Assembly: GCF_000317535.1 (NCBI RefSeq)
Contig: NC_020050.1
Location: 175,315 to 239,314 of the forward strand
DNA length: 64,000 nt
Direction of reading: 5' to 3'
From: Cylindrospermum stagnale PCC 7417
GTDB lineage: Bacteria; Cyanobacteriota; Cyanobacteriia; Cyanobacteriales; Nostocaceae
Notes under the pieces: generated by a model
What the model was told of the DNA's origin: nothing
The model's input: the letters and a program-made list of their open reading frames with translations, nothing else
Databases searched by the model: none
Position numbers and translations under genes: made by a program
Shown: positions 4,458 through 58,824 of the stretch, piece after piece
How the letters are laid out: every line of letters begins with the position of its first letter
How positions within the stretch are numbered: position 1 is the stretch's first letter

Positions 4458-7190
4458 CTAAAACGCGAAGTTGCTGGGGCTATCGAGGATGCCTGGATTT
4501 GTTAAGTTCACCGTGATAAAAGGTCTGAAGATATCACCAGCAGCGAGTCCATCACTGTCAATTTGCACGCTGAAATTGCTAGCACTATTACCCAGCACAA
4601 CTTTCACATAGTTATCAGCTATGGCGTTAGTGCCGTTGTAGCCACCTGCAACTAGGCTATCGAGCAGTTGAGTGAAGACAATATTATCCTTGCCAACCTC
4701 AAAATCTGTAATCGTGTCTCCGCGATCGCGAATGCTAGTGTAGACAAATTGGTCATTACCGCCACCACCTGTAAGTTTATCTGCACCTTGTAAGCCGATG
4801 AGGTGATCGCTATTTAAAGTGCCAGTCAGTTCATCACGACCTGACGTACCAAGAATTTCAGTTTTCGTATCGAGCTGGATTGTTCCATCACTGAACTCTA
4901 TAGTTTCAATAGATTTCAATACATCAATACCAAGACTAACATCACTTAAATCTTGTAAAAGATAAGAACTATTAGACTGCTTTATCAGCGATATTTTTGA
5001 TTGGGGACGGGAAATACGTAAAGTATCATTTCCAGCGCCCCCATCAATAGTATCATTGCCAAAGCCACTGTCAATAATGTCATCACCTATACCACCGTTA
5101 ATGATATCATCACCATTATCACCGTACAGAGTGTCATTACCCGCGTTCCCATTAATAGTATCGTCTCCACCAGAACCAAAGATAATATTAGAAAGATTAT
5201 CTCCCTCTAAGAGTTCTCCATCATCAGTTCCTGTTTCAGGTTCAACAAAGAAAAAATCATCGCGGACGCTGAAAACAGAATTGCCATTAAAAGAAGCAGG
5301 AATAATATTACCAGTAGATGGAGCAAATAACTCTATTGTCCAGGTTTCTTCTCCTTCTTGTAACCCGTCTTGTTTTAGACCCCAGTAATCATTAATAGGT
5401 CCAATTATATCCAAAACTTCTTGTGATAAACCAGTTGTATCCAAACCTTCAAAATGTATATCAACGGTTGTCTGAACACTAGGTAATAAAGTCAGTACAC
5501 CTTCAGGCAGAGTACCAGACTCAAAATCATTTGCGGATATTGGACTATCTCCTGTAGGTTTGACACGCCATCCGATTTCTTCTGTCTGATTTGTATCGCC
5601 ATTCCGATTAATACTGAATCTGATGGCTTGCCCGGTATCATAAACTTTACCTTCAGTAAGAACAGAGCTAGTATATGTATTAACTACCCACTCTGGTTGA
5701 ATAGACTTAGCTTCCAGATAAGCTTCACCTTCACTAACAATAGAGCTAGTATATGTATTAACTACCCGCTCTGGTTGAATAGACTTAGCTTCCAGATAAG
5801 CTTCACCTTCACTAACAATAGAGCTAGTATATGTATTATCTACCCGCTCTGGTTGAATAGACTTAGCTTCCAGATAAACTTCACCTTCACTAACAATAGA
5901 GCTAGTATATGTATTATCTACCCGCTCTGGTTGAATAGACTTAGCCTCTGGAGTTACAGCTAATGGTTCTGGTTCTTCTAACAAAAGAGGTGAAAAATTA
6001 TTTAGTAATCGTTGATTTCTGGGTGCAAACCCGCCTGAAACTAAGGAAAAGTTCCAAAGTGTCCCGCCTAAAGCAGCCTGGACTGTAACAGTAATATTAC
6101 CTTTACTATTATCAGGGATTCTAAAATCAATTGGCATTCCAGTAACACTAACAGTTCCTGTATCAAGGAGGGTTGTATTACCATCTTTAATAATTAGTCT
6201 GTCTGGAATAGAATATGATGTAAATTGACCTGTAATAATTTGTTTGGGCGCAACTGGTGCAGTAAATGTAAAGTTTCCTTGACTGCCACTTTCTATAAGT
6301 TTGTCAAATATTTTTTCTTGATTTTTTAAGTCAAAATTAATAATATCATTACTACCATTAATGGGAAAAGATCCTTCTGATTTATAAAAAACTACTCCTG
6401 AAATATTAGATTCTCTACGAATGACATAGTTATCAATAGTCACTTTGAATGTTTCTGTCTCCTCTTTTAAATCGTCGAAAATAGAACTAAGAGCAACAGT
6501 TACTTTTTGCTGACCAGCACTAAGTTTTATCCATTGGTTATCATTTTCTAAGCCCAAACTTCTTGCTGGGGATGGCAGACTAGCTAAACTATTTGACTTT
6601 AAATCGGATTTAAAACTGCCTGTGCCGCTAAAATCAAGATGAAACCAAATATCTTTTGATAGCCCACTAGCAGCACCAGGACCCGTCAGGGAAATTTCGA
6701 GTAAGATATCTTCGCCCTCAATATAACTTGACTTACCACCGTTTATGGAAAGCTGAACACCATAGCTGAAGTCATCGGTTACTTTTATATCTATTGGGGT
6801 CCAGCTTTTATTATAATAATCATTAGTTACTCGACTTGCCAGCATTGCTGGATATTCTGGTGCTAAATCTTGGACTCGTAAATATTCATATACTCTGCCT
6901 ACAAAATCATCGGCATCAACAAGGCATCCTTCGGTATTACCAGTATTTATTCCACGATGAAAAACAATTGATTTACGGTTTGGTATTGGATCAGGATTTG
7001 TCGGCGTTCCAAAACGAAAAGAACTAGAAAATCTTTCAAATAACCAATAGCTAGCTTTGTAATCTCCAGCAGCCCAAGGAGTAGCATCATCCCAAAAGCC
7101 ACTTCCTGTGATTATTTTACTTCCGTCAGTAAATGTGTACTCAGCCAATCCATTATCTTTGCGTGTTACTGTGATGGTTGGATTTGCCAT
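4458..7190 (-). CDS. Large RTX (haemolysin-type Ca2+-binding) repeat protein
   Basis: A 910-residue, acidic, Gly/Asp/Asn-rich protein. Residues about 1-390 form an unassigned region with Calx-beta-like stretches (EGEDILLEISLTGP). Residues about 425-530 hold four near-identical 26-residue repeats built on EAKSIQPERVDNTYTSSIVS. Residues about 670-740 hold at least six RTX nonapeptides of the GGxGxDxI type (GNAGNDTLYGDNGDDIINGG), and a second short RTX block follows near 810 (LQGADKLTGGGGNDQFVY). There is no N-terminal signal peptide, as expected for type I secretion through a C-terminal signal. It is probably a secreted adhesin or surface-layer-like protein that folds on binding calcium. No ABC exporter genes are nearby. 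Copy 2 of the 200-bp repeat lies directly upstream. Confidence 0.85.
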   Translation of the reverse strand: MANPTITVTRKDNGLAEYTFTDGSKIITGSGFWDDATPWAAGDYKASYWLFERFSSSFRFGTPTNPDPIPNRKSIVFHRGINTGNTEGCLVDADDFVGRVYEYLRVQDLAPEYPAMLASRVTNDYYNKSWTPIDIKVTDDFSYGVQLSINGGKSSYIEGEDILLEISLTGPGAASGLSKDIWFHLDFSGTGSFKSDLKSNSLASLPSPARSLGLENDNQWIKLSAGQQKVTVALSSIFDDLKEETETFKVTIDNYVIRRESNISGVVFYKSEGSFPINGSNDIINFDLKNQEKIFDKLIESGSQGNFTFTAPVAPKQIITGQFTSYSIPDRLIIKDGNTTLLDTGTVSVTGMPIDFRIPDNSKGNITVTVQAALGGTLWNFSLVSGGFAPRNQRLLNNFSPLLLEEPEPLAVTPEAKSIQPERVDNTYTSSIVSEGEVYLEAKSIQPERVDNTYTSSIVSEGEAYLEAKSIQPERVVNTYTSSIVSEGEAYLEAKSIQPEWVVNTYTSSVLTEGKVYDTGQAIRFSINRNGDTNQTEEIGWRVKPTGDSPISANDFESGTLPEGVLTLLPSVQTTVDIHFEGLDTTGLSQEVLDIIGPINDYWGLKQDGLQEGEETWTIELFAPSTGNIIPASFNGNSVFSVRDDFFFVEPETGTDDGELLEGDNLSNIIFGSGGDDTINGNAGNDTLYGDNGDDIINGGIGDDIIDSGFGNDTIDGGAGNDTLRISRPQSKISLIKQSNSSYLLQDLSDVSLGIDVLKSIETIEFSDGTIQLDTKTEILGTSGRDELTGTLNSDHLIGLQGADKLTGGGGNDQFVYTSIRDRGDTITDFEVGKDNIVFTQLLDSLVAGGYNGTNAIADNYVKVVLGNSASNFSVQIDSDGLAAGDIFRPFITVNLTNPGILDSPSNFAF
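5645..5955 (-). repeat. Four 78-bp tandem repeats inside the RTX gene
   Basis: The word AGAGCTAGTATATGTATTA recurs at 5664, 5742, 5820 and 5898, exactly 78 bp apart. Each unit encodes 26 residues (EAKSIQPERV..., with V/A and D/V variants). The DNA identity between units is very high, so the array is recent or kept uniform. Because 78 is a multiple of 3, unit gain or loss keeps the reading frame. Confidence 0.9.
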
Positions 7191-48962: not shown

Positions 48963-49912
48963 ACTAACTTAAATAACCTGCTAACATTAAGAATTGCTGG
49001 TAGTAAATCCTTACCTTCAGCACCCCTCTTAATAGACATTTCCAAATCCAAAATCATGGACACCGCCCTAGCCAAAGCATTGATACTTGTATTTGCTACT
49101 TCCTGACGCAAATAGTAAATACGATGAGGATTGCTGATACTGCACAATTGAGCTAATTCACCATCCTTCTTCACCCCAGAAACTATCGCAGACTTCACCC
49201 ATAACCAAGTTCTAAATTGCGTTAAAAGAGTGCTGACAATCACCATTAAAGGTTCACAACGAGATAGTAAATCATCCAACAACTGCAAAACTTGATGGCT
49301 TTTTCCTTCACGCATAGCCGCTGCCAATTGTAGGCTATTCTGAGTTTGACATGGCACTAATTCGTTGATCTCCGCAAGCTCTAATTTTCTGCCATGAGCA
49401 TAAATAGAAAGTTTGCGTAACTCAGAAGCTGCACGGGTCATATCGTTACCAATCGCTTGTGCTAAATATTCCACTGCATCCTCTGACAGCAGCAGTTTCA
49501 ATTTTTGAGCTTGAATAGCGATCGCCTTTTCAATCAAATCATTCCGCCAAAGTGGTATCAACGAAAACTCAAACGACTTCGCATACTTGACCAGGTGTTT
49601 GTAAATTTTCAGCCGCTTATCTACATTAGTAGCAACAAACACCAAAATCGTAGAATCAGGCACTTGCACCAACTGCTGCAAAGTTTCTAACTCAGGATCA
49701 CCCCATTGCTTGAGGCGGCAATTTTCCACAATTACCAGTTTTTTACCATCAGTGAGGGAACGAGTGCGAGCTACACTCATGGCTTTGTCAAGCTTATCAT
49801 CTGAAAATCGGTGATAGCATAGTGTCAGCCATTGGGCATCAATCTCCGCTTTGTACTGGTTTAACTGTTCCTGAATAGCGTGTTGGTCATCACCTGTGAG
49901 CAAGACTATCAT
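48959..49912 (-). CDS. holA: DNA polymerase III delta subunit (clamp loader)
   Basis: 317 residues of the HolA family. MIVLLTGDDQHAIQEQLNQY and LTDGKKLVIVENC form domain I, VFVATNVDKRLKIYKHLVKY follows, and the AAA-lid and C-terminal collar domains run to LEMSIKRGAEGKDLLPAILN. Delta is the wrench that opens the sliding clamp. Its start overlaps the dnaX stop by 4 nt (ATGA), so the two loader subunits are translationally coupled. Chromosomal holA would normally lie elsewhere, so this is an element-encoded second copy. No delta-prime gene is visible. Confidence 0.93.
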   Translation of the reverse strand: MIVLLTGDDQHAIQEQLNQYKAEIDAQWLTLCYHRFSDDKLDKAMSVARTRSLTDGKKLVIVENCRLKQWGDPELETLQQLVQVPDSTILVFVATNVDKRLKIYKHLVKYAKSFEFSLIPLWRNDLIEKAIAIQAQKLKLLLSEDAVEYLAQAIGNDMTRAASELRKLSIYAHGRKLELAEINELVPCQTQNSLQLAAAMREGKSHQVLQLLDDLLSRCEPLMVIVSTLLTQFRTWLWVKSAIVSGVKKDGELAQLCSISNPHRIYYLRQEVANTSINALARAVSMILDLEMSIKRGAEGKDLLPAILNVSRLFKLV

Positions 49913-51408
49913 CCTCTCACCCTCCCATTATTACTGAGACGGGCAGTTTTAATCAACACAGTCAGAGGTTTTGGACTTTGGGTAGCTCGTTGCAGCATTT
50001 TAGCGATCGCCTCCTTACCACTCTCAAACTTTTTCAGGTAAGCTGGTGTCACCTCTAAAATTGCCTTTGACCCTTGCAATTTCACCAGATGAGCATGAGC
50101 CAACAGCTTTTGATAGTTGGGTTTAGCCTTATCCATCACCTGCTGCCAAATTTGAGCCAGGTTAGCAGTATTGGTTGCAACTGCTGGTAACAAGCTATCC
50201 TCACCTTTGCCATCTCCAGGTTTATCAGTCACCTTGTTGATGGTGTATGTGCCATAAGTTGGTAACAATTTGCCATCATGCCCAGGTTTAACATTTACCG
50301 TCTTCGTTGCACCGACAGGCAATAAACCGGGCATCAAGTTGAGTAAACAAACCTCCAGCCACACCGCCGCATTTACCGTATACCGCAGATAATTTTCGGC
50401 TTTTTGTAACTCTGCTAGAGACAAATTCAGCGTCTCGAAATTCCAGTGATTTGCAAAAGCTTTGAGTTGGGTATGGCTGACACAACCAGTCAGTAAGGCT
50501 TGTTCCTTTGGCACAGACTTGATAACCAGTAAATCTCGGTATGTTTGCAGTAAGTTGGAGAGAATCAATTTGGGCGTTTTACCAGAGTCTACTAAAACTC
50601 TTGCGACTTGCAGCAAATTAAAAGTGTTGTTGGTGGTGATCGCCTGTAAAATTGCCATTAGCTCTGTTTCTGTGACACCACCAACGATTTCCATGACATG
50701 ATGGGCAGTGATATCTGCATTCAAAAGACTTGCCTGACCGAGTAATTGCAGCGCATCCCGTAAACCACCATCGCTGAGTCGTGCGATCGCAATCAGTGCC
50801 TCATCATTAATAGAAATAGATTCCGCATCTGCTACAATACGGAGATGCTGCACAATTGTTTTAACTGATAAAGTGCGGAAATTAAACACCTGACAACGGC
50901 TGACAATAGTAGGTAACACCTTGTGCAGTTCTGTAGTGCAAAGAATGAAAACCACATGAGGTGGCGGTTCTTCAATACACTTGAGTAAAGCATTTTGAGA
51001 CTGGGTTGTGAGTTGATGCGATTCATCTAGAATAAAAATTCGGTAACGTCCTGCTACTGGCACTAAAGTACAGCGTTCAATTAAAGCACGGGCATCATCT
51101 ACACCATTATTGGAAGCAGCATCAATTTCACTGACGTCTAGGCTATTACTGGTTTCAATTGAACGGCAGGATTGACAAATCCCACAAGGTTTGTCAGTTG
51201 GTTTTTTAGTATTAAGACAATTAAGAGATTTAGCAAATATCCGCGCAGTTGAGGTTTTACCTGTGCCTCTAGAACCTGTAAACAAATATGCTGGTGCAAT
51301 TTGTAAATTTTTGACGGCATTAGTCAGAGCAGTTTTGATGTAGGGCTGTCCAACTAACTCTGCTAAAGTTTGGGGTCGATATTTTTGATGTAGAGCGACT
51401 GTAGACAT
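49909..51408 (-). CDS. dnaX: DNA polymerase III gamma/tau subunit (clamp-loader ATPase)
   Basis: 499 residues from ATG 51408 (MSTVALHQKYRPQTLAELVG); the frame extends 21 codons upstream in unlikely sequence. Walker A is GSRGTGKTS. The zinc module has four Cys (CLNTKKPTDKPCGICQSC). Walker B is FILDESHQLT, where H/S replaces the usual DEVH form. SRC (IVSRCQVFNF) is the arginine-finger motif. Collar and a short C-terminal region follow, without the long tau extension of chromosomal cyanobacterial DnaX and without an intein. It works with the overlapping holA product to load the clamp encoded by dnaN 0.8 kb away. Confidence 0.93.
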   Translation of the reverse strand: MSTVALHQKYRPQTLAELVGQPYIKTALTNAVKNLQIAPAYLFTGSRGTGKTSTARIFAKSLNCLNTKKPTDKPCGICQSCRSIETSNSLDVSEIDAASNNGVDDARALIERCTLVPVAGRYRIFILDESHQLTTQSQNALLKCIEEPPPHVVFILCTTELHKVLPTIVSRCQVFNFRTLSVKTIVQHLRIVADAESISINDEALIAIARLSDGGLRDALQLLGQASLLNADITAHHVMEIVGGVTETELMAILQAITTNNTFNLLQVARVLVDSGKTPKLILSNLLQTYRDLLVIKSVPKEQALLTGCVSHTQLKAFANHWNFETLNLSLAELQKAENYLRYTVNAAVWLEVCLLNLMPGLLPVGATKTVNVKPGHDGKLLPTYGTYTINKVTDKPGDGKGEDSLLPAVATNTANLAQIWQQVMDKAKPNYQKLLAHAHLVKLQGSKAILEVTPAYLKKFESGKEAIAKMLQRATQSPKPLTVLIKTARLSNNGRVRG

Positions 51409-51565
51409 AGGATTCAATAACCTTAATTTGTCGCCCTTACCCCTGTTAAGGGGGTGTAATTTTGAATCCAAAGTAGGCTGATTTGCTCAATTCTAATAAG
51501 ACTTACCGATACCAGAAGTTGAGTACGCCTAAAGATGCACGGGTTATGGCATTTTACTAGAGTAT

Positions 51566-52213
51566 ATGGACAAGACCCCTAGTAAAAATAGGGAAAAGTT
51601 ACAGATATCCCCTAGTAAAAATCGCCGACGAAAGGGCGATGGTAACGGGTTTATTTATTGGCGCACCATCACCAAGAATGGTAAAGATTACCAGCAAGCT
51701 TATTACCACTGGAAGGAAAACGGTCAGAAAAAAACTAGGTACATATCCAAAAAATTACTGGGGGATATTCAAGAAGCTGAGGCTGCTAAACGTCCAGTCA
51801 AAGAAATTCTGCTTTTTTTAGGCATTTCTATCACCCCTAGTAACAACAGCCCTAGTAATTTACTGGGGGATATCCAGTTAAGCCCTAGTAAATCAGATAT
51901 ATCCCCTAGTAACAACAGCCCTAGCAATTTACTAGGGGATATTCCATCAAGCCCTAGTAAATCAGACATCTCCCCTAGTAAAATGCGGCGGCATAAAGAA
52001 GAGGGGAGCGGTAACATCCACTGGCGTATCATCACCAAAAAAGACAAAGATTACCCACAGGCTTACTATCATTTTGAGTTTTGGACTCAAGGCGATCGCT
52101 TGATAAAATCTTCTAAGTACATTCCTAAGCAGTTAATACATCGAGTTGAGCAGTTAGAGCAAGAGAAAGCACCAGTTAAAGAAATTTTGCAAGTCTTGGG
52201 TGTAGAATTGTAA
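51566..52213 (+). CDS. Unknown duplicated-domain protein with SPSN/SPSK repeats
   Basis: A 215-residue protein with two copies of a 60-residue domain: residues about 28-90 (GNGFIYWRTITKNGKDYQQAYYHW...PVKEILLFLGI) and 150-215 (GSGNIHWRIITKKDKDYPQAYYHF...PVKEILQVLGV). The linker and head consist of SPSK/SPSN, NSPSN and LLGDI units. The domain type, short with W-R-x-I-T and YYHW, is seen in cyanobacterial proteins of unknown function and may bind DNA. The gene lies between dnaX and dnaN on the opposite strand. Its DNA repeats are listed separately. Confidence 0.65.
   Translation: MDKTPSKNREKLQISPSKNRRRKGDGNGFIYWRTITKNGKDYQQAYYHWKENGQKKTRYISKKLLGDIQEAEAAKRPVKEILLFLGISITPSNNSPSNLLGDIQLSPSKSDISPSNNSPSNLLGDIPSSPSKSDISPSKMRRHKEEGSGNIHWRIITKKDKDYPQAYYHFEFWTQGDRLIKSSKYIPKQLIHRVEQLEQEKAPVKEILQVLGVEL
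51577..51981. repeat. CCCTAGTAA repeat array with inverted copies
   Basis: CCCTAGTAA occurs at 51577, 51610, 51835, 51850, 51883, 51904, 51952 and 51973, with a variant at 51919. The reverse form TTACTAGGG or TTACTGGGG occurs at 51755, 51860 and 51929. One pair gives a perfect 14-bp hairpin, ATATCCCCTAGTAA (51899-51912) with TTACTAGGGGATAT (51929-51942). All forward copies are in one codon phase (SPSK/SPSN), so the array also serves the peptide. Typical spacings are 15 and 21 bp. Confidence 0.75.
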
Positions 52214-52230: not shown

Positions 52231-53691
52231 TTAACTATTTGGAATATACAACGGTAGTAAGAAATGACGCATAGACATTTCCAATTCTGGATTTGGTCTA
52301 TCTCCATAAGGGACTAACATGGCAGGATGATCTGATTGTTGCAAGTGCATTTTGATACCCGAGCTAGGAATTGCTTTAGCAGCTTCGATTAAATACTTGA
52401 GATTAAACTGGATATTCAATGACATTTCTGCTGGTAAATGAGCAATAATAACCTGATCTCCTTTACCAAATTCTCGTTCAATGGATAACCGTAACTGCTG
52501 TAAATTTCCATCAAATTGTAAGTAAATTCCTTTCTCTTTCTTATCCGTTAACACAGCTAACCGTTCCAATGCTTTGACTAGCGGTGCTTTTTCTAAAATT
52601 ACTTCTCTCTCAAAGATGAATTTAGCTAATAATTGCTCACAATCAGGGTAAATTCCTTCCACAACTTGACAGCTAAGAATGACATCTTGCCAAGCAAAAC
52701 CCAAGCGATTACTTTGAGAATCATACAGCAGATTAATGAATTCCACATCGTCATTTAAGTTACGCGCTATTTCTCTCACCACACGACCAGGAAGAGTAAA
52801 TTGCATAATTTCCTCAGATGTAACTTGTTTACGAGGTTTTCTGCCAATTCCTTGGGTAGAAAGTTCAGTAATAGCAACTCGATGCCCATCAGTACCAATA
52901 AACTTTAACTTCTCCTGTGCAAGTTGTATATGAACTCCAGTCAAGATATATTTATTTTCATCAGTACTGACCGCATAAAGCACTCCTTTCAAACCATCTT
53001 TGAAAATTGTTGTTGGCAGAGGTATCGGAGTAGCATCAATTGTATTAGTAGGTGGAAACTCTTCAGCACTGATGCCTCTAATTTCATATTTTCCATCGGC
53101 ATCAGATAAACTGAGGGAACTGATTTTTGTTTGCTTATCGTCATTAGCAAACTGTGCAATCTGAGTTTGACTATTGAGGTAGATATTACCGTTAGGGCAA
53201 TGCTTGACTATCTCAAATAGGATTTCTACTGGCACAGTAATTTCACCTTTAAGCAGCACCTGAGCTTCAAAACTGGTCTGAATTGTTAATGCTAAATCAG
53301 TGGCAGTTAGATATATCTGTTGTGTTTCGATATCTGCAACGATTAGAGCATTAGCAAGAATAGGATGGGTAGGTTTAGCTGGGGTAGCACAACTAACTAA
53401 AGAGAGCGCATCGTGAAATTTAGTTTGTGAGCAGATTACCTCCATTTCTGACTCTATCAGTGGTTGGAAGTTTAACTCTAATTTGGCAGAACGTTTCTTA
53501 GCACGTTTATTTGAAGATTCAGTTGGAGTATCAGCATTTAGAGATGTAGGCTTTTTCTTTTTACCTACAGGCATTTCCGGGATATTTGCTGATACTTCAT
53601 ATTCAGTTTTATCGGTTTTAGGAGTAGCTGCACTGGTTTGTTTTGTCTGCTTTGCAGGATTTACCCTTTGTTTTGGCGCTGTTTGAGTCAT
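52231..53691 (-). CDS. dnaN: DNA polymerase III beta sliding clamp with long N-terminal extension
   Basis: A 486-residue protein. Residues about 84-486 are the three-domain clamp: MEVICSQTKFHDALSLVSCA; GTDGHRVAITEL near the domain 2 region; and the C-terminal AMLVPYGDRPNPELEMSMRH, FLLPLYI, corresponding to the usual VMPMR/L terminus. Residues 1-80 are a Lys/Ser/Thr/Pro-rich disordered tail (KQRVNPAKQTKQTSAATPKT; NKRAKKRSAKLELNF) not found in ordinary DnaN of about 380 residues. The first-Met choice matters, since an internal start at MEVICSQ would give the standard form. It is element-encoded and near dnaX/holA. Several element proteins carry candidate clamp motifs. Confidence 0.92.
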   Translation of the reverse strand: MTQTAPKQRVNPAKQTKQTSAATPKTDKTEYEVSANIPEMPVGKKKKPTSLNADTPTESSNKRAKKRSAKLELNFQPLIESEMEVICSQTKFHDALSLVSCATPAKPTHPILANALIVADIETQQIYLTATDLALTIQTSFEAQVLLKGEITVPVEILFEIVKHCPNGNIYLNSQTQIAQFANDDKQTKISSLSLSDADGKYEIRGISAEEFPPTNTIDATPIPLPTTIFKDGLKGVLYAVSTDENKYILTGVHIQLAQEKLKFIGTDGHRVAITELSTQGIGRKPRKQVTSEEIMQFTLPGRVVREIARNLNDDVEFINLLYDSQSNRLGFAWQDVILSCQVVEGIYPDCEQLLAKFIFEREVILEKAPLVKALERLAVLTDKKEKGIYLQFDGNLQQLRLSIEREFGKGDQVIIAHLPAEMSLNIQFNLKYLIEAAKAIPSSGIKMHLQQSDHPAMLVPYGDRPNPELEMSMRHFLLPLYIPNS

Positions 53692-53972: not shown

Positions 53973-54404
53973 TCACGCGCAATTATTTACATTCATCAAA
54001 GATTGAGCAGGAGAAACATCCGAAAAGTTACGCAGCAAACGAAACCGATTGGCAATTTCAGCCATTGCATCTAATAGTTCATCCTCATCCGCAGTCTGAA
54101 TTACTTCAACGAGCGATCGCTTGAGGGATGCGGGTGACTGATTCTCTTTGCCTAACACCAGTTGATAAAAGAATTGTTTGGAACCAGGAGCTAAAACTTC
54201 CATGCCATCCAACAACTTTGACAAGGTGGTAGTACTAACGTCACATTTTCCCCGACGAAACTCGGAAATGTGATTTTCTGAGACCTTTGTGTCACCAGAC
54301 AACTGTTTGGCACTGATCCTATACCGCTTTATCGTCGCATCGAAGGACTGGGACAGGGGGGACACCGGGTAAGAAATAGCCGAGACAGAATTGTTAACTT
54401 TCAT
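53973..54404 (-). CDS. XRE-family repressor-like regulator
   Basis: A 143-residue protein with an N-terminal HTH (FDATIKRYRISAKQLSGDTK, VSENHISEFRRGKCDVSTTT, LSKLLDGM) and a C-terminal acidic helical domain (SLVEVIQTADEDELLDAMAE, IANRFRLLRNFSD). It is divergent from the three-gene rep-like operon. Its promoter carries a perfect palindrome with an extra half site (54411-54461), so autoregulation and control of the divergent operon are likely. This is the usual way a plasmid sets copy number. The function is inferred. Confidence 0.82.
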   Translation of the reverse strand: MKVNNSVSAISYPVSPLSQSFDATIKRYRISAKQLSGDTKVSENHISEFRRGKCDVSTTTLSKLLDGMEVLAPGSKQFFYQLVLGKENQSPASLKRSLVEVIQTADEDELLDAMAEIANRFRLLRNFSDVSPAQSLMNVNNCA

Positions 54405-54626: not shown

Positions 54627-54857
54627 ATGACACAGGGAATTCCAAAATTACAGGGCGTGTTCTACCCTCTCCAGCATGAAGAATGGCTGAGAGCCTACTG
54701 TGAACTCACAACAAGAAAGCAAGCCGCTTTCTACTGTCCAGAGCATCAAAAGCGCATTCATTGGTTTGGAGAATGCATTCCAGAAAAAGCAGCCCTTATT
54801 AAGTCTGGCTGCTCAGAATTCCAAGTTAACATCACTTTTGAGGAGACTGAGTCATGA
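54627..54857 (+). CDS. Small unknown protein, first gene of the rep-like operon
   Basis: A 76-residue protein beginning MTQGIPKLQGVFYPLQHEEW. The phrase QGxFYPLQ is repeated at the start of the next gene (QGEFYPLQKAEL), and the following helices are also alike (LTTRKQAAFYCPEHQ against LINNSAYVHFALRYE). It looks like a shortened paralogue of the N-terminal domain of that protein. The stop overlaps the next start by 4 nt (ATGA). Its function is unknown, possibly a regulator or decoy of the initiator. Confidence 0.6.
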   Translation: MTQGIPKLQGVFYPLQHEEWLRAYCELTTRKQAAFYCPEHQKRIHWFGECIPEKAALIKSGCSEFQVNITFEETES

Positions 54858-55732
54858 TACCAAAGCCTCAGAGGGACGATCATGGAAAAGTTCAGGGTGA
54901 ATTTTACCCACTACAAAAGGCAGAGCTTATTGCCCTTCGTAAAGCCAAGCTGATAAACAATTCTGCTTATGTTCACTTTGCTCTTAGGTATGAAAATCCA
55001 TACTGCGATCGCTCCATCACCATTATTCCCAAAGAATTTGCTACGCGGTGGCAAATACCAGAAAGTAGCGTTTACGAGGCAATAGCCAAGCTCAAGGACA
55101 GTAACACTATCAATATCAAGTCAGGCAGAATCACCATTGAGTGGGCTAATTCTCAACAAGCCGAAATTGTTGAGAATCAACAAGCAGACGTTATTGATTC
55201 TCAACAAGTAAACAATTCTGGGAATCCAGAAAAATTCTGGGAATCCAGAAAAAATTCTGGGAATCCAGAAAAATTTACGGAATCCCAGAAAAATTTACGG
55301 AATCCCAGAAAAAATTCTGGAAGTTCAGAAAATTGCAGTCCAGAACCCTCTCCCAGCAAGGGTTCCAACTCTCCTCAGACTATTCAGACTTATTCAGACT
55401 TAAAAAACTCTCTCTCAGATGGTGAGAGAGAGAGTTTTTTAAAGTTTGGATTAGAAAAAGCTAGAAAGTTGCCTAAACCCCCAGAACTTCCCCACAAGTG
55501 GATAGAAACACACTGGGAGGAAATATCAGCAGAGTGGATGAAGGTACAAGGTAAGATTCCTGAAATTCAGAAACAAAAATGGAAGAATCACCCCTATCGA
55601 GATGAGTGGTTAGAAAAAATTCGCTCTCTTGGACAATTTGGTTTTTACGCTGAGAACCGTCAAGAAGAAAAAGAACGGCGGGAATTTTTCAAGTGGGCGG
55701 ATGCTAATAACTTGATATGGGGTCAATCATGA
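54854..55732 (+). CDS. Candidate replication initiator with internal iteron-like repeats
   Basis: A 292-residue protein. The N-terminal 100 residues form a winged-helix-like domain (LIALRKAKLINNSAYVHFAL; IIPKEFATRWQIPESSVYEA; IAKLKDSNTINIKSGRITIE), the fold expected for plasmid Rep or DnaD-like proteins. Residues about 115-180 are a Gln/Asn/Ser linker containing SGNPEKF/ESRKN units encoded by 20-bp DNA repeats. The C-terminus is basic and helical (WIETHWEEISAEWMKVQGKI; FYAENRQEEKERREFFKWAD). It has 4-nt overlaps with the genes before and after it. No family is firmly recognised, so the Rep call rests on fold, iterons, operon and position in the replication module. Confidence 0.55.
   Translation: MIPKPQRDDHGKVQGEFYPLQKAELIALRKAKLINNSAYVHFALRYENPYCDRSITIIPKEFATRWQIPESSVYEAIAKLKDSNTINIKSGRITIEWANSQQAEIVENQQADVIDSQQVNNSGNPEKFWESRKNSGNPEKFTESQKNLRNPRKNSGSSENCSPEPSPSKGSNSPQTIQTYSDLKNSLSDGERESFLKFGLEKARKLPKPPELPHKWIETHWEEISAEWMKVQGKIPEIQKQKWKNHPYRDEWLEKIRSLGQFGFYAENRQEEKERREFFKWADANNLIWGQS
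55214..55332. repeat. Iteron-like array: six units of about 20 bp
   Basis: Units begin at 55214, 55233, 55253, 55272, 55292 and 55313 (19-21 bp steps). Typical units are AATTCTGGGAATCCAGAAA and AATTTACGGAATCCCAGAAA. The steps are not multiples of three and units fall in two codon phases, so the encoded peptide changes while the DNA repeats. This argues for selection on the DNA, as for iterons that bind a replication initiator. The array lies within the candidate rep gene. Confidence 0.8.
55400..55442. other. Perfect 17-bp hairpin inside the candidate rep gene
   Basis: TTAAAAAACTCTCTCTC (55400-55416) pairs without mismatch with GAGAGAGAGTTTTTTAA (55426-55442), loop 9 nt. On the plus strand it ends in six T and would look like an intrinsic terminator in mid-gene. 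It is 68 bp after the iteron-like array and preceded by two direct TATTCAGACT words. Confidence 0.85.
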
Positions 55733-56229
55733 TTGATGACTTACCCCAATTTGAACCAGTTCCCTTGCGTCCTGAAGAGGAAAACCAAGAAGAGGAAATT
55801 TTCTATCCCCGGTGGCGATGTTTCTGTTGCCAAGATTCTGGTCTAGTCTCACGGGATTTAGTTCAGTTAATCATGCCAAAGTACAATCCAGACCGAGATA
55901 AGTGGGTACTTTGCCAGGGAGCCAATTGCGACGCATCGAAACGCTGGGAGAATGTACCAATTGAAAATTTTGATATCCGCTTTATTCCCAGTATTTGTCA
56001 AAAGCTGGATTTAATCAATCGAGAAAACTGGCGTAACACTGTAAAACAACAAATTAACATTCGCCAATTGGCTAAAAAACTGAAAATGCCTGGAAGTGGG
56101 AATCGCACCGAAAATGACAACCGTGAAGTGCAGCAACAGAAACAAGAAATTGAAGCAATTTATGAAGAGGAATGGATGAAAATGTCAAATGTACATTTGA
56201 GCCAAGAATACGAACAAAAAGAAGATTAA
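55729..56229 (+). CDS. Unknown zinc-ribbon protein, third gene of the rep-like operon
   Basis: About 166 residues from ATG 55729 (MIDDLPQFEPVPLRPEEE), which overlaps the previous stop by 4 nt (ATGA) just like the pair before it; an ATG at 55717 is the alternative. A four-Cys pattern (WRCFCCQDSGLVS ... WVLCQGANCDAS) suggests a zinc ribbon. A helical basic segment follows (RNTVKQQINIRQLAKKLKMP), with a charged tail. It could be a DnaC-like or primosome adapter, but nothing proves that. Confidence 0.6.
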   Translation: MIDDLPQFEPVPLRPEEENQEEEIFYPRWRCFCCQDSGLVSRDLVQLIMPKYNPDRDKWVLCQGANCDASKRWENVPIENFDIRFIPSICQKLDLINRENWRNTVKQQINIRQLAKKLKMPGSGNRTENDNREVQQQKQEIEAIYEEEWMKMSNVHLSQEYEQKED

Positions 56230-56361: not shown

Positions 56362-58824
56362 TCACCGGATAACTAATATCCGTTGTCTAGCTCGCGAACT
56401 AGCAACATAATACAACCGATTAAACTCTCTAATCTTTGCTAGGACTGAATTACTGTTATCTCCTCGTTCTGGATTAAGTCGCTTACTCAAATCTTGACCA
56501 TCAATACCAGCCTCTAAGAAAGTGCTACCTTGGCTATTGTGAACAGTTAATGCAAAGCAGTTTCTGACGTTAGCAAACTGCTCGATATGTCTGTAGTACT
56601 GCTTCCACAAAAAGGGATTACGCTTGGCACTTTTGAGTAAGCGTTTGGTTTCTTGGTCGAATCGTGTTTGCTCATCTTCATGCAATACGTAGATTTGACG
56701 CACAATTCCGTCGTCTGTCTTTATCTTTAACCTCCAAGCATTATAATTGTTATAACGGTCTACAAAGGCATCTAAAACAGTAAATTCCATAGATGTCGAA
56801 AGAATTGCAGTTTTCCCATCAGGAGCCATCACAGGATCTCTGGTGATTAATCTCTCTCCAGAAATAAATCTATTGGCATCTTCACCATATAAATATGTCC
56901 GAATCTGCTGATTGTAAAAGTCAACTTGAGCATTCGTCCAGGACAAAATTCGGAAACAATCTGGGTTTTTAGCAAATTCTTTAGACATCTTTTTGCAGGC
57001 ATAACGCAGCAAAGTTTGACGTTTAACCATCAGCGCCCCGTTACTTTTATCAGGCAAATAATTAGCATAAGGCTCAAAAGGAAACTTGCTCTTGGTGACT
57101 GCATAGCGAGAGGCTGTGACAAACTCTAACAAAGGGCTACCAGTTCCTTGACGCACAACTTGAGTCAATACTGCTTTATCTGGTACTTGAAAACTAGGGG
57201 ATTTTCCTTCATTAACTGGATTTAACTGTGCTGGGTCGCCCATGAGAATAATTTTGAGCTTTGTCCAGGTGGATGATTGATTAGCAACATTCTCAATCCA
57301 GCGCCAGAGTTGTTTACCAATCATGGAACATTCGTCAATAAAGACAACATCAAATAGATTGATGTAAGAGGGGCCAGTCTGGTCAAGTACTTTCTCTTTA
57401 CCTCTAGTCACCATACCCAGTCCTAGCAACTGGTGAATGGTGAAGAATTCTACGCCAGTTACGCCATTTTCTGCCGCCGTGCGTTGCAGCACACCTACAG
57501 CTTTATTAGTGGGTGCGGTGACAGCAACTCGCTTATCTTGAACCAATAGTTCTCGAATAAGTTGCTGAACACAAGTAGTATTATGAGTTACAATGCAATG
57601 CTCTGTCACATAGAGATGTGACGGATGCTCTACAGCAATACACACACATTCTTCCTCACCTGCATTCTCTGCTGATATGATGTATCGAGTGGGAATATAT
57701 CGAGTTTTCGGTTTTACACGATCACGTTTGCGGGACAAATGAAACGGATTAATGTCTGGTGGTAAACAAATTGATAAACAGTAACAAAGCCGTCCAGATG
57801 CAGTATTCTTCTCCCGTATGCGACAAATACCACCCAATGACTCAACCAAACTCTTAACGTCGTATCCTAGTTGTAAAGAACTCGTTGCCAACAAAGTTTC
57901 ATAACCTTTCTTGGAGACACTACCATCTGTGTCCATTAATCCACGCAGTAATTCTAAGCGTACTTTTTTAGAATTAATTAAGTAGCAGTTGGGAATGTAT
58001 TTCTCATAAGAGTACTTATTCCACAAACCTAAATTTCTTAATGTCTGAGTTAGCTGATTATACCGAAATTGCCCTTTCCATGTAGTACCGATAAATGCAT
58101 ATGTTAAACCTAATTCCCTTCCTACAGATTTCATTTCTATGCCTTGGGGGACTAATTTACCGCATCGTTCAGCAATCTCAGAGTCTGTTGTAGTTAGCTT
58201 AGGTGTTCCCTGGGTCAATCCTCCATCTCCTAATAGACAGCCTAATAAGTAAGGCTCTACAGGAACAGAAGATGATTCAAAGTCAGCACATTGCATAACC
58301 GGAATTTTATGATTTTTGTGAGTACCTTTTCTTGCCGTTAATGATTGTGCAATTTCGTATGTTGTTTTGACACGACCTGGTTTTAACTGATAAATTTTTC
58401 CTTTTTTATCAGCTTTATATTTGCTAACACGATTTACGGCACGTTCAGAATGACTTTCTGTGAGCCAAAGATGTTCATAACAACAACGTGTTGAACTACC
58501 ATCACTGAATGTGACTCTGGCAACAGGTTTAATGCCTTGTGGAAAAATAGCTAAAACTTTTGTTCGAGTACCATCACTGGAAATAACTGAATCACCTGCT
58601 TTCAAATCACCTATTGGTTTCCAACCTGTGGGGGTAAGAACTGGAGTTTTTATTGGTTGTGCTTTCCCAGTCCCTGCATAACCTGCTAGTAAAAATACAC
58701 TTTTTAAGTTTTTCGGTTGCAGAAACTCATGTATTTTTGCCAGAGCTTTACTTTGCTGATAAGTAAGCTCCCAAGCGTTGTGTGTCAGTGATGCTGACAG
58801 TAAATGTGAAGTAGCTTCTATCAT
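56362..58824 (-). CDS. RecD/Pif1-like superfamily 1 helicase containing an intein
   Basis: An 820-residue precursor. The extein (residues 1-54 and 416-820, 459 in all) is an AAA/UvrD-like helicase: Walker A GYAGTGK-TT split by the intein, then AVTAPTNKAVGVLQRTAAEN, FFTIHQLLGLGMV, Walker B DVVFIDECSMIG, ILMGDPAQLNPV and QVVRQ, the motif order of Pif1/RecD2-type enzymes. The C-terminal UvrD-like motif is NCFALTVHNSQGSTF then FNRLYYVASSRARQRILVI. The intein must splice out for ATP binding. It is probably the helicase of the plasmid replication/repair module. A GC-rich hairpin lies in the leader (58898-58931). Confidence 0.92.
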   Translation of the reverse strand: MIEATSHLLSASLTHNAWELTYQQSKALAKIHEFLQPKNLKSVFLLAGYAGTGKAQPIKTPVLTPTGWKPIGDLKAGDSVISSDGTRTKVLAIFPQGIKPVARVTFSDGSSTRCCYEHLWLTESHSERAVNRVSKYKADKKGKIYQLKPGRVKTTYEIAQSLTARKGTHKNHKIPVMQCADFESSSVPVEPYLLGCLLGDGGLTQGTPKLTTTDSEIAERCGKLVPQGIEMKSVGRELGLTYAFIGTTWKGQFRYNQLTQTLRNLGLWNKYSYEKYIPNCYLINSKKVRLELLRGLMDTDGSVSKKGYETLLATSSLQLGYDVKSLVESLGGICRIREKNTASGRLCYCLSICLPPDINPFHLSRKRDRVKPKTRYIPTRYIISAENAGEEECVCIAVEHPSHLYVTEHCIVTHNTTCVQQLIRELLVQDKRVAVTAPTNKAVGVLQRTAAENGVTGVEFFTIHQLLGLGMVTRGKEKVLDQTGPSYINLFDVVFIDECSMIGKQLWRWIENVANQSSTWTKLKIILMGDPAQLNPVNEGKSPSFQVPDKAVLTQVVRQGTGSPLLEFVTASRYAVTKSKFPFEPYANYLPDKSNGALMVKRQTLLRYACKKMSKEFAKNPDCFRILSWTNAQVDFYNQQIRTYLYGEDANRFISGERLITRDPVMAPDGKTAILSTSMEFTVLDAFVDRYNNYNAWRLKIKTDDGIVRQIYVLHEDEQTRFDQETKRLLKSAKRNPFLWKQYYRHIEQFANVRNCFALTVHNSQGSTFLEAGIDGQDLSKRLNPERGDNSNSVLAKIREFNRLYYVASSRARQRILVIR
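57580..58662 (-). other. LAGLIDADG intein in the helicase Walker A motif
   Basis: Residues 55-415 (361 residues) form an in-frame insertion between GTGK and TT. Block A starts AQPIKTPVLTPTGWKPIGDL with Ala as residue 1 instead of the usual Cys or Ser. The end is HLYVTEHCIVTHN before Thr +1, with the canonical His-Asn. Two LAGLIDADG-type helices are visible (LLGCLLGDGGLT and LLRGLMDTDGSV), so it should be a full homing-endonuclease intein. Confidence 0.92.

Follow-up and report, generated by a model that had tools for sequence, protein, structure and literature searches.

Lambda O, gene 18 of P22 and gene 18 of phage L carry different iterons within their own coding regions (PMC8022706; PMC3349717). 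The iterons of the lambdoid O and P22 18 genes are about 18–20 bp long and lie in the middle of the coding region, with an adjoining A/T-rich element in lambda; lambda P binds and loads DnaB, and P22 gp12 is a DnaB-type helicase (PMC3349717; PMC8022706). The RepA_N plasmid pSK41 of Firmicutes has an origin located centrally in rep and bound by the N-terminal domain, a dispensable linker coded by the origin and a separate C-terminal domain, with an N-terminal HTH of pfam13730 instead in the chimera pPR9 (PMC5703833). The repABC origin lies inside repC and is described as having no iterons (PMC3155836). In cyanobacteria, CyRepA is defined by DUF3854 with DEXDc and CyRepX by DEXDc/HELICc-like regions (PMC10079941; PMC10899382), and knowledge of replication initiation in large cyanobacterial plasmids is scant (PMC10899382). 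Searches of open-access papers that covered initiators and iterons of cyanobacterial plasmids as well as pAQ5 and DnaB found no description of the family treated here among the papers listed.

The window analysed is a stretch of 64,000 nucleotides (C4:175315–239314) from contig C4, which has 431,821 bases and belongs to the 7.6-Mb, four-contig genome of Cylindrospermum stagnale PCC 7417; positions are those of the window unless a contig is named. On the sequence evidence, the gene at 54854–55732 (plus strand, 292 aa) probably encodes a plasmid replication initiator, composed of a winged helix, a linker and a helicase-recruiting domain, with the DNA of the linker serving as its own origin. It is best read as a lambda O or P22 18–12-like initiator of cyanobacterial plasmids whose gene contains both the iterons of a putative origin and a putative unwinding element. 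The layout of an origin in the initiator gene would be shared with repABC, from which this gene differs by its clear iteron array. CyRepA and CyRepX are likewise candidate initiators of cyanobacterial plasmids, but the present protein is a winged-helix protein of 292 aa that matches neither DUF3854 nor DEXDc.

Results

Six quasi-palindromic units of about 20 bp lie within the ORF at 55214–55332 (plus strand). Tandem Repeats Finder returned this interval with a period of 20, 6.1 copies and 85% matches, and a separate repeat search agreed. The self-repeat score of the ORF was 53.0, compared with means of 10.7 after shuffling of synonymous codons and 7.7 after shuffling of codon order; with 200 shuffles in each control, no shuffled sequence attained it. 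The original prediction, made from the bare sequence, of an iteron-like array inside a candidate initiator gene was thus confirmed by two repeat searches and by the shuffles. It had, however, given the units as 19–21 bp and the reading phases as two, whereas the 16-bp cores start at 55216, 55235, 55255, 55275, 55295 and 55315, with spacings of 19, 20, 20, 20 and 20 bp, and their phases relative to the ORF (2, 0, 2, 1, 0, 2) cover all three. The cores of units 4 and 5 were matched on the opposite strand, as expected of imperfect palindromes. With up to three mismatches, TTCTGGGAATCCAGAA occurs nine times in the window against 0.71 expected, six of the nine being the array. A sigma-70 promoter scan gave one site versus 4.1 in shuffles. 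Directly upstream of the iterons, the repeat searches also found 24-bp repeats that keep the reading frame, together with an inverted repeat of 17 nt (55149–55207, plus strand); these may be sites of another type or a repeat at the peptide level; in the relative L007 they correspond to a 48-bp repeat of 2.8 copies.

The AlphaFold2 model of the protein, built with 7 sequences (mean pLDDT 65, pTM 0.30), predicts an N-terminal winged-helix domain at residues 22–97 (54917–55144, plus strand; 10-residue mean pLDDT 63–86), a helical C-terminal domain at residues 180–284 (55391–55705, plus strand), presumed to recruit the helicase, and disorder (pLDDT <50) at residues 100–175, the part coded by the array and its flanks. 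The best 50 of 1521 Foldseek matches were mostly winged-helix regulators, none of these 50 reaching E ≤ 0.001, and the fold search yielded nothing informative. The intact ORF, its plasmid homologues and a PHROG match to the ‘DnaD-like helicase loader’ phrog_186 (E 9.5e-6) all point to an initiator (rep, O-like) gene, and the protein had no NCBIfam family and no Pfam match above cut-off. Among 11 initiators scanned, three had O-like PHROG matches (L020, phrog_345, E 4.2e-9; L050, phrog_678, E 1.7e-5; L074, phrog_678, E 1.8e-5), and L050 also matched PF13730 (E 1.4e-8), while its best E in a PDB sequence search was 0.04.

With the window protein, tblastn found 19 PLSDB plasmids, all from cyanobacterial genera, and two relatives used as queries found 31 and 22 PLSDB records, again all cyanobacterial; the hosts include Nostoc, Anabaena, Trichormus, Dolichospermum, Microcystis, Planktothrix and Picosynechococcus (pAQ5), and a selection of these matches was examined with neighbouring genes. 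Of the 243 genomes of the order, 39 match the initiator at E ≤ 1e-5, the own genome included, in which contigs C1 (154 kb) and C2 (7.0 Mb) carry copies as well. A phage origin of the family was considered and rejected: no match was found in 50,697 phage records, and viral contigs contained no relatives of the initiator (sought by peptide scan), the partner gene or the element described below.

The family set comprised 59 intact members, including the window gene. Five homologues with no family ORF of at least 200 aa (L009, L019, L028, L038 and L046), the repeated loci L002–L006, L012, L055 and L056, and contig pieces were left out, and ten members found through the AGACT element alone were kept apart. 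The 59 members are not independent, and key counts were redone on 43 proteins below 60% identity. For each member, the strongest self-similarity was sought at lags of 13–30, with 99 other ORFs from the same loci as controls. This search for relatives with conserved repeats, a check named by the original prediction, gave a best lag of 18–21 in all 59 intact members (20 in 39 members, 21 in 18, and 19 and 18 in one member each), and of 20, 21 or 18 in every one of the 43 non-redundant proteins. The array was significant at p ≤ 0.01 in 53/59 members against codon shuffling and in 51/59 against synonymous shuffling. A score of at least 15 was reached by 47/59 members versus 2/99 control ORFs, and the highest control score (16.5, n = 99) was exceeded by 45/59 members and 32/43 non-redundant ones.

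The case that had been named as counting against the prediction, a homologue that keeps the protein and has lost the repeat, was also sought. Six of the 59 members missed p ≤ 0.01 against codon shuffling but retained a best lag of 20 or 21. Nine of the ten element-only members had a best lag of 20 or 21, and the tenth one of 17; four scored at least 15 and six, among them the one with lag 17, fell within the control range. In these six (L153, L155, L156, L159, L160 and L163) the AGACT element is kept, and their arrays may have decayed, diverged further or taken on a different spacing. Degenerate arrays thus exist in the family, mostly at unchanged lag.

The period was 20 in 34 of 49 clear arrays, the units of which therefore cannot be read as one peptide repeat, and a multiple of 3 in 14 of the 49. 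Unit sequences vary by lineage (TTCTGGnnnTCCAGAA-like, GGACAAAGTTGTCC, TCTCAAAAATGAGA, GGCGACAGTTGT, CTTATTTAAGCCCC, TCCGCAAACGCGGA and others), and no linker sequence common to the family was seen among the linkers listed. Dyad symmetry was significant at p ≤ 0.01 in 13/45 arrays and absent at p ≤ 0.05 in 27/45. On 14 replicons scanned, a single marginal copy of an array unit was found outside the arrays. Because a change of 20-bp units that is not in threes shifts the frame, some of the five homologues left out for want of a family ORF of 200 aa may be casualties of array change.

Iteron similarity was tied to the N-terminal rather than the C-terminal domain. In partial Mantel tests (49 arrays, 1176 pairs), its correlation with N-terminal identity, corrected for the C-terminal part, was significant (r = 0.167, p = 0.001), and the converse test for the C-terminal domain showed no correlation (r = −0.043, p = 0.91); the effect is small and is driven by pairs with N-terminal identity of at least 0.5. 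The covariation is carried by natural domain swaps: the 22 pairs with N-terminal identity of at least 0.7 and C-terminal identity below 0.4 had a mean unit score of 18.3, compared with 5.8, equal to background, in 74 pairs with C-terminal identity of 0.5–0.7 and N-terminal identity below 0.4. The N-terminal winged helix is presumed to be the iteron-binding domain. Linkage by recombination may contribute to the correlation, because winged helix and array adjoin in the gene. In L022 (1486–2466) and L052 (4920–5888) the C-terminal domain is unrelated, yet degenerate iterons and CAGACT-like repeats are kept; neither dnaB nor a loader-like gene was found in the 1.0–1.5 kb downstream of these two.

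A conserved DNA element (55373–55447, plus strand), presumed to be the DNA-unwinding element, starts some 40 nt beyond the 3′ end of the array, with AGACT at 55377, 55386 and 55396 followed by a CT/GA tract and an A/T tract; the DNA reads about CCTnAGACTanTnAGACTTATnnAGACTTTatanAnaCTCTCTCAGAagnnGAgaGAGAGAatTTT. Codon homozygosity excess across the family was 0.347 at residues 174–198, compared with 0.058 and 0.052 in the N- and C-terminal domains, respectively, 0.144 in the linker coded by the iterons and 0.229 in the stretch that joins this linker to the element. Across 200 synonymous permutations, the highest value of any 25-residue window was 0.067, and the 43 non-redundant proteins gave 0.362 in the element; codon choice there is fixed far beyond the requirements of the protein. 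AGACT-like motifs occur in 53/59 members, mostly 9, 10 or 11 bp apart and in two coding phases, and in L023, L049, L051 and L027 the DNA motif is constant while the peptide is altered. Over 300 nt on either side in the 59 genes, mean duplex stability is lowest at the element (energy z +1.94); the window's own element is modest in this respect, since about 12% of C4 has a lower stability and the initiator gene contains an equally weak stretch at 55540.

The array lies upstream of the element in 49/49 cases, and 75–160 nt (median 81, IQR 79–89) separate its end from codon 187, which falls within the element. A 34-base element pattern, with up to three mismatches, had 25 matches in 20/243 genomes, all 25 in ORFs homologous to the initiator family, and its reversed pattern had none; the window's own element differs from the pattern by more than three bases and is not among these matches. 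Because iterons vary and the element varies much less, the latter is presumably read by some factor common to the members. In RK2, repeated motifs in the unwinding element are bound as single strand (PMC4081077). A perfect 17-bp inverted repeat inside the element (55400–55442, not assigned to a strand) is strong in the window and partly kept in relatives. As a conserved hairpin it was rejected, its counterpart being weak or absent in many relatives (mean z −1.55 in the 59 members; z ≤ −2 in only 20/59, z > 0 in 8/59).

The gene that follows the initiator (55717–56229, plus strand; likely start at 55729) occupies the position of lambda P and encodes a protein of about 165–170 aa with conserved cysteines, a presumed helicase loader. 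C30, C32, C33, C61, C66 and C89 are invariant in four aligned sequences, and the protein had no family match and no fold match. Within 1.0–1.5 kb downstream of the 59 initiators, dnaB was found in 22, a homologue of the 170-aa ORF in 28 (the window included), neither in 9 and both in none. The type of the C-terminal domain predicts which partner follows: type B (EAWLA..RWEVYY) has dnaB in 21/21, and types A and C have the 170-aa protein in 23/27, one having dnaB and three none (Fisher p = 3e-13; non-redundant 13/1 versus 0/22, p = 6e-9), with the reservation that the types were defined by motifs written after the sequences and some neighbours had been viewed. Of the remaining 11 initiators, five are followed by the gene of the 170-aa protein and six by neither partner. 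Because each replaces the other, these results suggest that the Cys-rich 170-aa protein with the host DnaB may do the job of the plasmid DnaB alone.

Upstream, a small ORF of 76 aa (54627–54857, plus strand) overlaps the initiator start by ATGA and contains a KLQGVFYPLQ motif resembling the initiator N terminus. It had no Pfam family, and relatives (tblastn, E ≤ 1e-3) lie upstream of 12 other members of the 59; with its FYPLQ motif, it is possibly a truncated initiator copy or a regulator. A divergent Cro/C1-type HTH regulator (53973–54404, minus strand; HTH_26, E 2.4e-4, slightly short of the curated cut-off) has relatives upstream of 26 other members of the 59. DNA polymerase III gamma/tau-like and beta-clamp genes also lie near the initiator (49909–51471 and 52231–53691, both minus strand), and dnaN is near the broken homologue in Dolichospermum DET69. 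The ORF at 56362–58824 (minus strand) encodes a RecD/PIF1-like helicase whose P-loop is apparently split by an insert resembling an intein, with a match to LAGLIDADG_3 (E 2.2e-9) and a weak one to Hint_2 (E 0.073). Other tandem repeats in the window are a 69-bp unit coding for a SPSNLLGDI-like peptide in a 215-aa ORF (51566–52213) and a 78-bp unit of 3.9 copies (5640–5945).

On C4, cumulative GC skew has its minimum at 395.4 kb and its maximum at 105.0 kb, and the array lies at 230.5 kb. The GC-skew check named by the original prediction therefore gave no support, the extremes being about 125 and 165 kb from the array. As an origin marker, GC skew was itself rejected on 12 plasmids, in which the array lay on average 0.28 of the plasmid length from the minimum and 0.23 from the maximum, with 0.25 expected. 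DnaA boxes, sought by motif, were absent within 3 kb of the array, the nearest being about 3.2 kb away. Two DUF3854 (CyRepA-type) ORFs lie on C4 (132860–133243 and 151098–151439 of the contig); elsewhere in the genome, DUF3854 ORFs are found at C3:16186–16566 and, two more, on C2. Several replicons may share C4, and several Reps on one plasmid were reported for 41/256 cyanobacterial plasmids (PMC10899382). No second rep is annotated for Trichormus variabilis plasmid B, pAQ5 or Microcystis p1FD4 in the gene table of PLSDB, which is incomplete. In the Geminocystis plasmid L008, the initiator gene stands beside ‘protein rep’ and RepL, and its array is non-significant.

Discussion

The family resembles the lambdoid O and P22 18 modules in its iterons of similar length in the middle of the gene. 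The A/T-rich, easily melted flank of the lambdoid module is also found family-wide, next to the array in every clear case, and is modest in the window. In the position of the next gene, dnaB or the putative loader of about 165 aa is found in 50 of the 59 members (22 and 28, respectively) and neither in 9. The family differs from these phage modules in residing on cyanobacterial plasmids, phage records and viral contigs being devoid of matches, and in having the AGACT element in common among members with unrelated iterons. A sequence link to O-like PHROGs was found in 3/11 initiators scanned, and the window protein matches the DnaD-like phrog_186 only; membership among O-like proteins is thus only partly shown.

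In RepA_N plasmids such as pSK41 the origin lies centrally in rep; in the present gene, array and element sit there. RepA_N proteins have DnaD-like folds in their N- and C-terminal domains; the window protein shows a generic winged helix at a mean pLDDT of 65, and none of its best 50 Foldseek matches named a plasmid Rep. The PF13730 match of L050 is to the HTH family of the pPR9 N terminus. RepA_N (PF06970) and Rep_3 (PF01051) were not among the families listed for the 11 initiators scanned (25 of 38 families in the case of L050). The likeness to the pSK41 layout could reflect either convergence or distant kinship.

Considering these results, we propose the following scenario. The N-terminal winged helix would bind the six iterons, probably as dimers on the quasi-palindromes. 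Binding at about every two helical turns would stress the adjoining AGACT/A+T element, which would then melt. The C-terminal domain, along with the product of the next gene, a Cys-rich putative loader of about 165 aa in the window and a plasmid DnaB in other members, would place the replicative helicase on the melted strand, and theta replication would follow. The linker peptide would be a by-product, and its sequence would therefore track the iterons. On C4 this would be a replication module, though it need not be the principal one. Points against the scenario are the element-only members that lack a clear array, the modest instability of the window's own element, the nine members with neither partner gene, the lack of dyad symmetry in most arrays, the non-significant array of L008 and the lack of a Pfam family for the window protein.

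Selection on the DNA inside an initiator-like gene, as claimed by the original prediction, is strongly supported by the 20-bp period of most clear arrays and, further, by iterons that track the N-terminal domain, by the adjoining element with its frozen codons and low mean duplex stability, and by the downstream dnaB genes. The same data bear on the idea that a low-complexity linker grew by tandem duplication, DNA similarity merely following the protein. The linker is indeed predicted to be disordered, and peptide repeats are real in the 14 clear arrays whose period is a multiple of 3 (e.g. L034 and L045); the shifting phases of the 34 arrays with period 20 largely refute such an origin, the 51 members that beat synonymous shuffles include strong 21-bp arrays, and the linkers listed show no family-wide sequence, so that this explanation is very improbable. 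Short palindromic repeats are common in cyanobacteria, and the units might have arrived with a mobile repeat element; but lineages that differ in the winged helix also differ in the units found at the corresponding site of the gene, and apart from the one marginal match the units are not dispersed on the 14 replicons, leaving next to no likelihood for such an arrival.

Iterons of many plasmids have control roles, and the array might accordingly be the site at which the protein exerts autoregulation, incompatibility or copy control, with the origin elsewhere. Binding alone would also yield the correlation between N-terminal domain and iterons. This is nevertheless unlikely, because the array is intragenic, has a conserved spacing to an element with frozen codons that melts easily and, bar the marginal match, has no copies at the promoter or elsewhere on the 14 replicons. 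A greater, though less than even, chance attaches to a real origin module of the family that is silent or secondary on C4, the contig replicating from a CyRepA-type replicon. DUF3854 is the CyRepA domain (PMC10079941), and the two DUF3854 ORFs at 132.9 and 151.1 kb and the distant skew extremes speak for it; on the other side, the initiator gene with its six iterons, the element and the partner gene all occur here, the ORFs being intact, and the skew extremes (395 and 105 kb) miss the DUF3854 ORFs too. This alternative is compatible with the best explanation at the family level. A plasmid origin embedded in its own rep gene, as originally predicted, would fit the layout of the initiator gene; on C4 the module may not be the main origin, because the skew does not point to it and two DUF3854 ORFs are present.

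A class of cyanobacterial embedded origins built of interchangeable parts can be tentatively envisaged, and we regard it as possible rather than probable. A swappable unit of winged helix and iterons would be combined with a fixed AGACT element and a swappable unit of C-terminal domain and loader or DnaB. The fixed part would be a melting element that overrides codon choice, with AGACT at about each helical turn, read by a common factor. Iteron number would be constrained by the code, changing only in threes in 20-bp arrays, because 20-bp units shift the frame, and freely in 21-bp arrays; the genetic code would therefore limit a copy-control element. A 60-bp three-unit duplication was the strongest repeat in 7/23 20-bp arrays versus 0/14 21-bp arrays (Fisher p = 0.03), and a single unit was the strongest in 12/23 20-bp arrays, so that the evidence for steps of three is thin.

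Dozens of related genes thus share the same layout with different repeat sequences and would form a recognizable replicon family on cyanobacterial plasmids, with a predicted clonable origin of about 250 bp. The rule that similar winged helices go with similar iterons should predict compatibility between such plasmids. The family provides a case in which codon choice is overridden by a DNA element and in which iteron-binding and helicase-recruiting parts are naturally exchanged, as in lambdoid phages.
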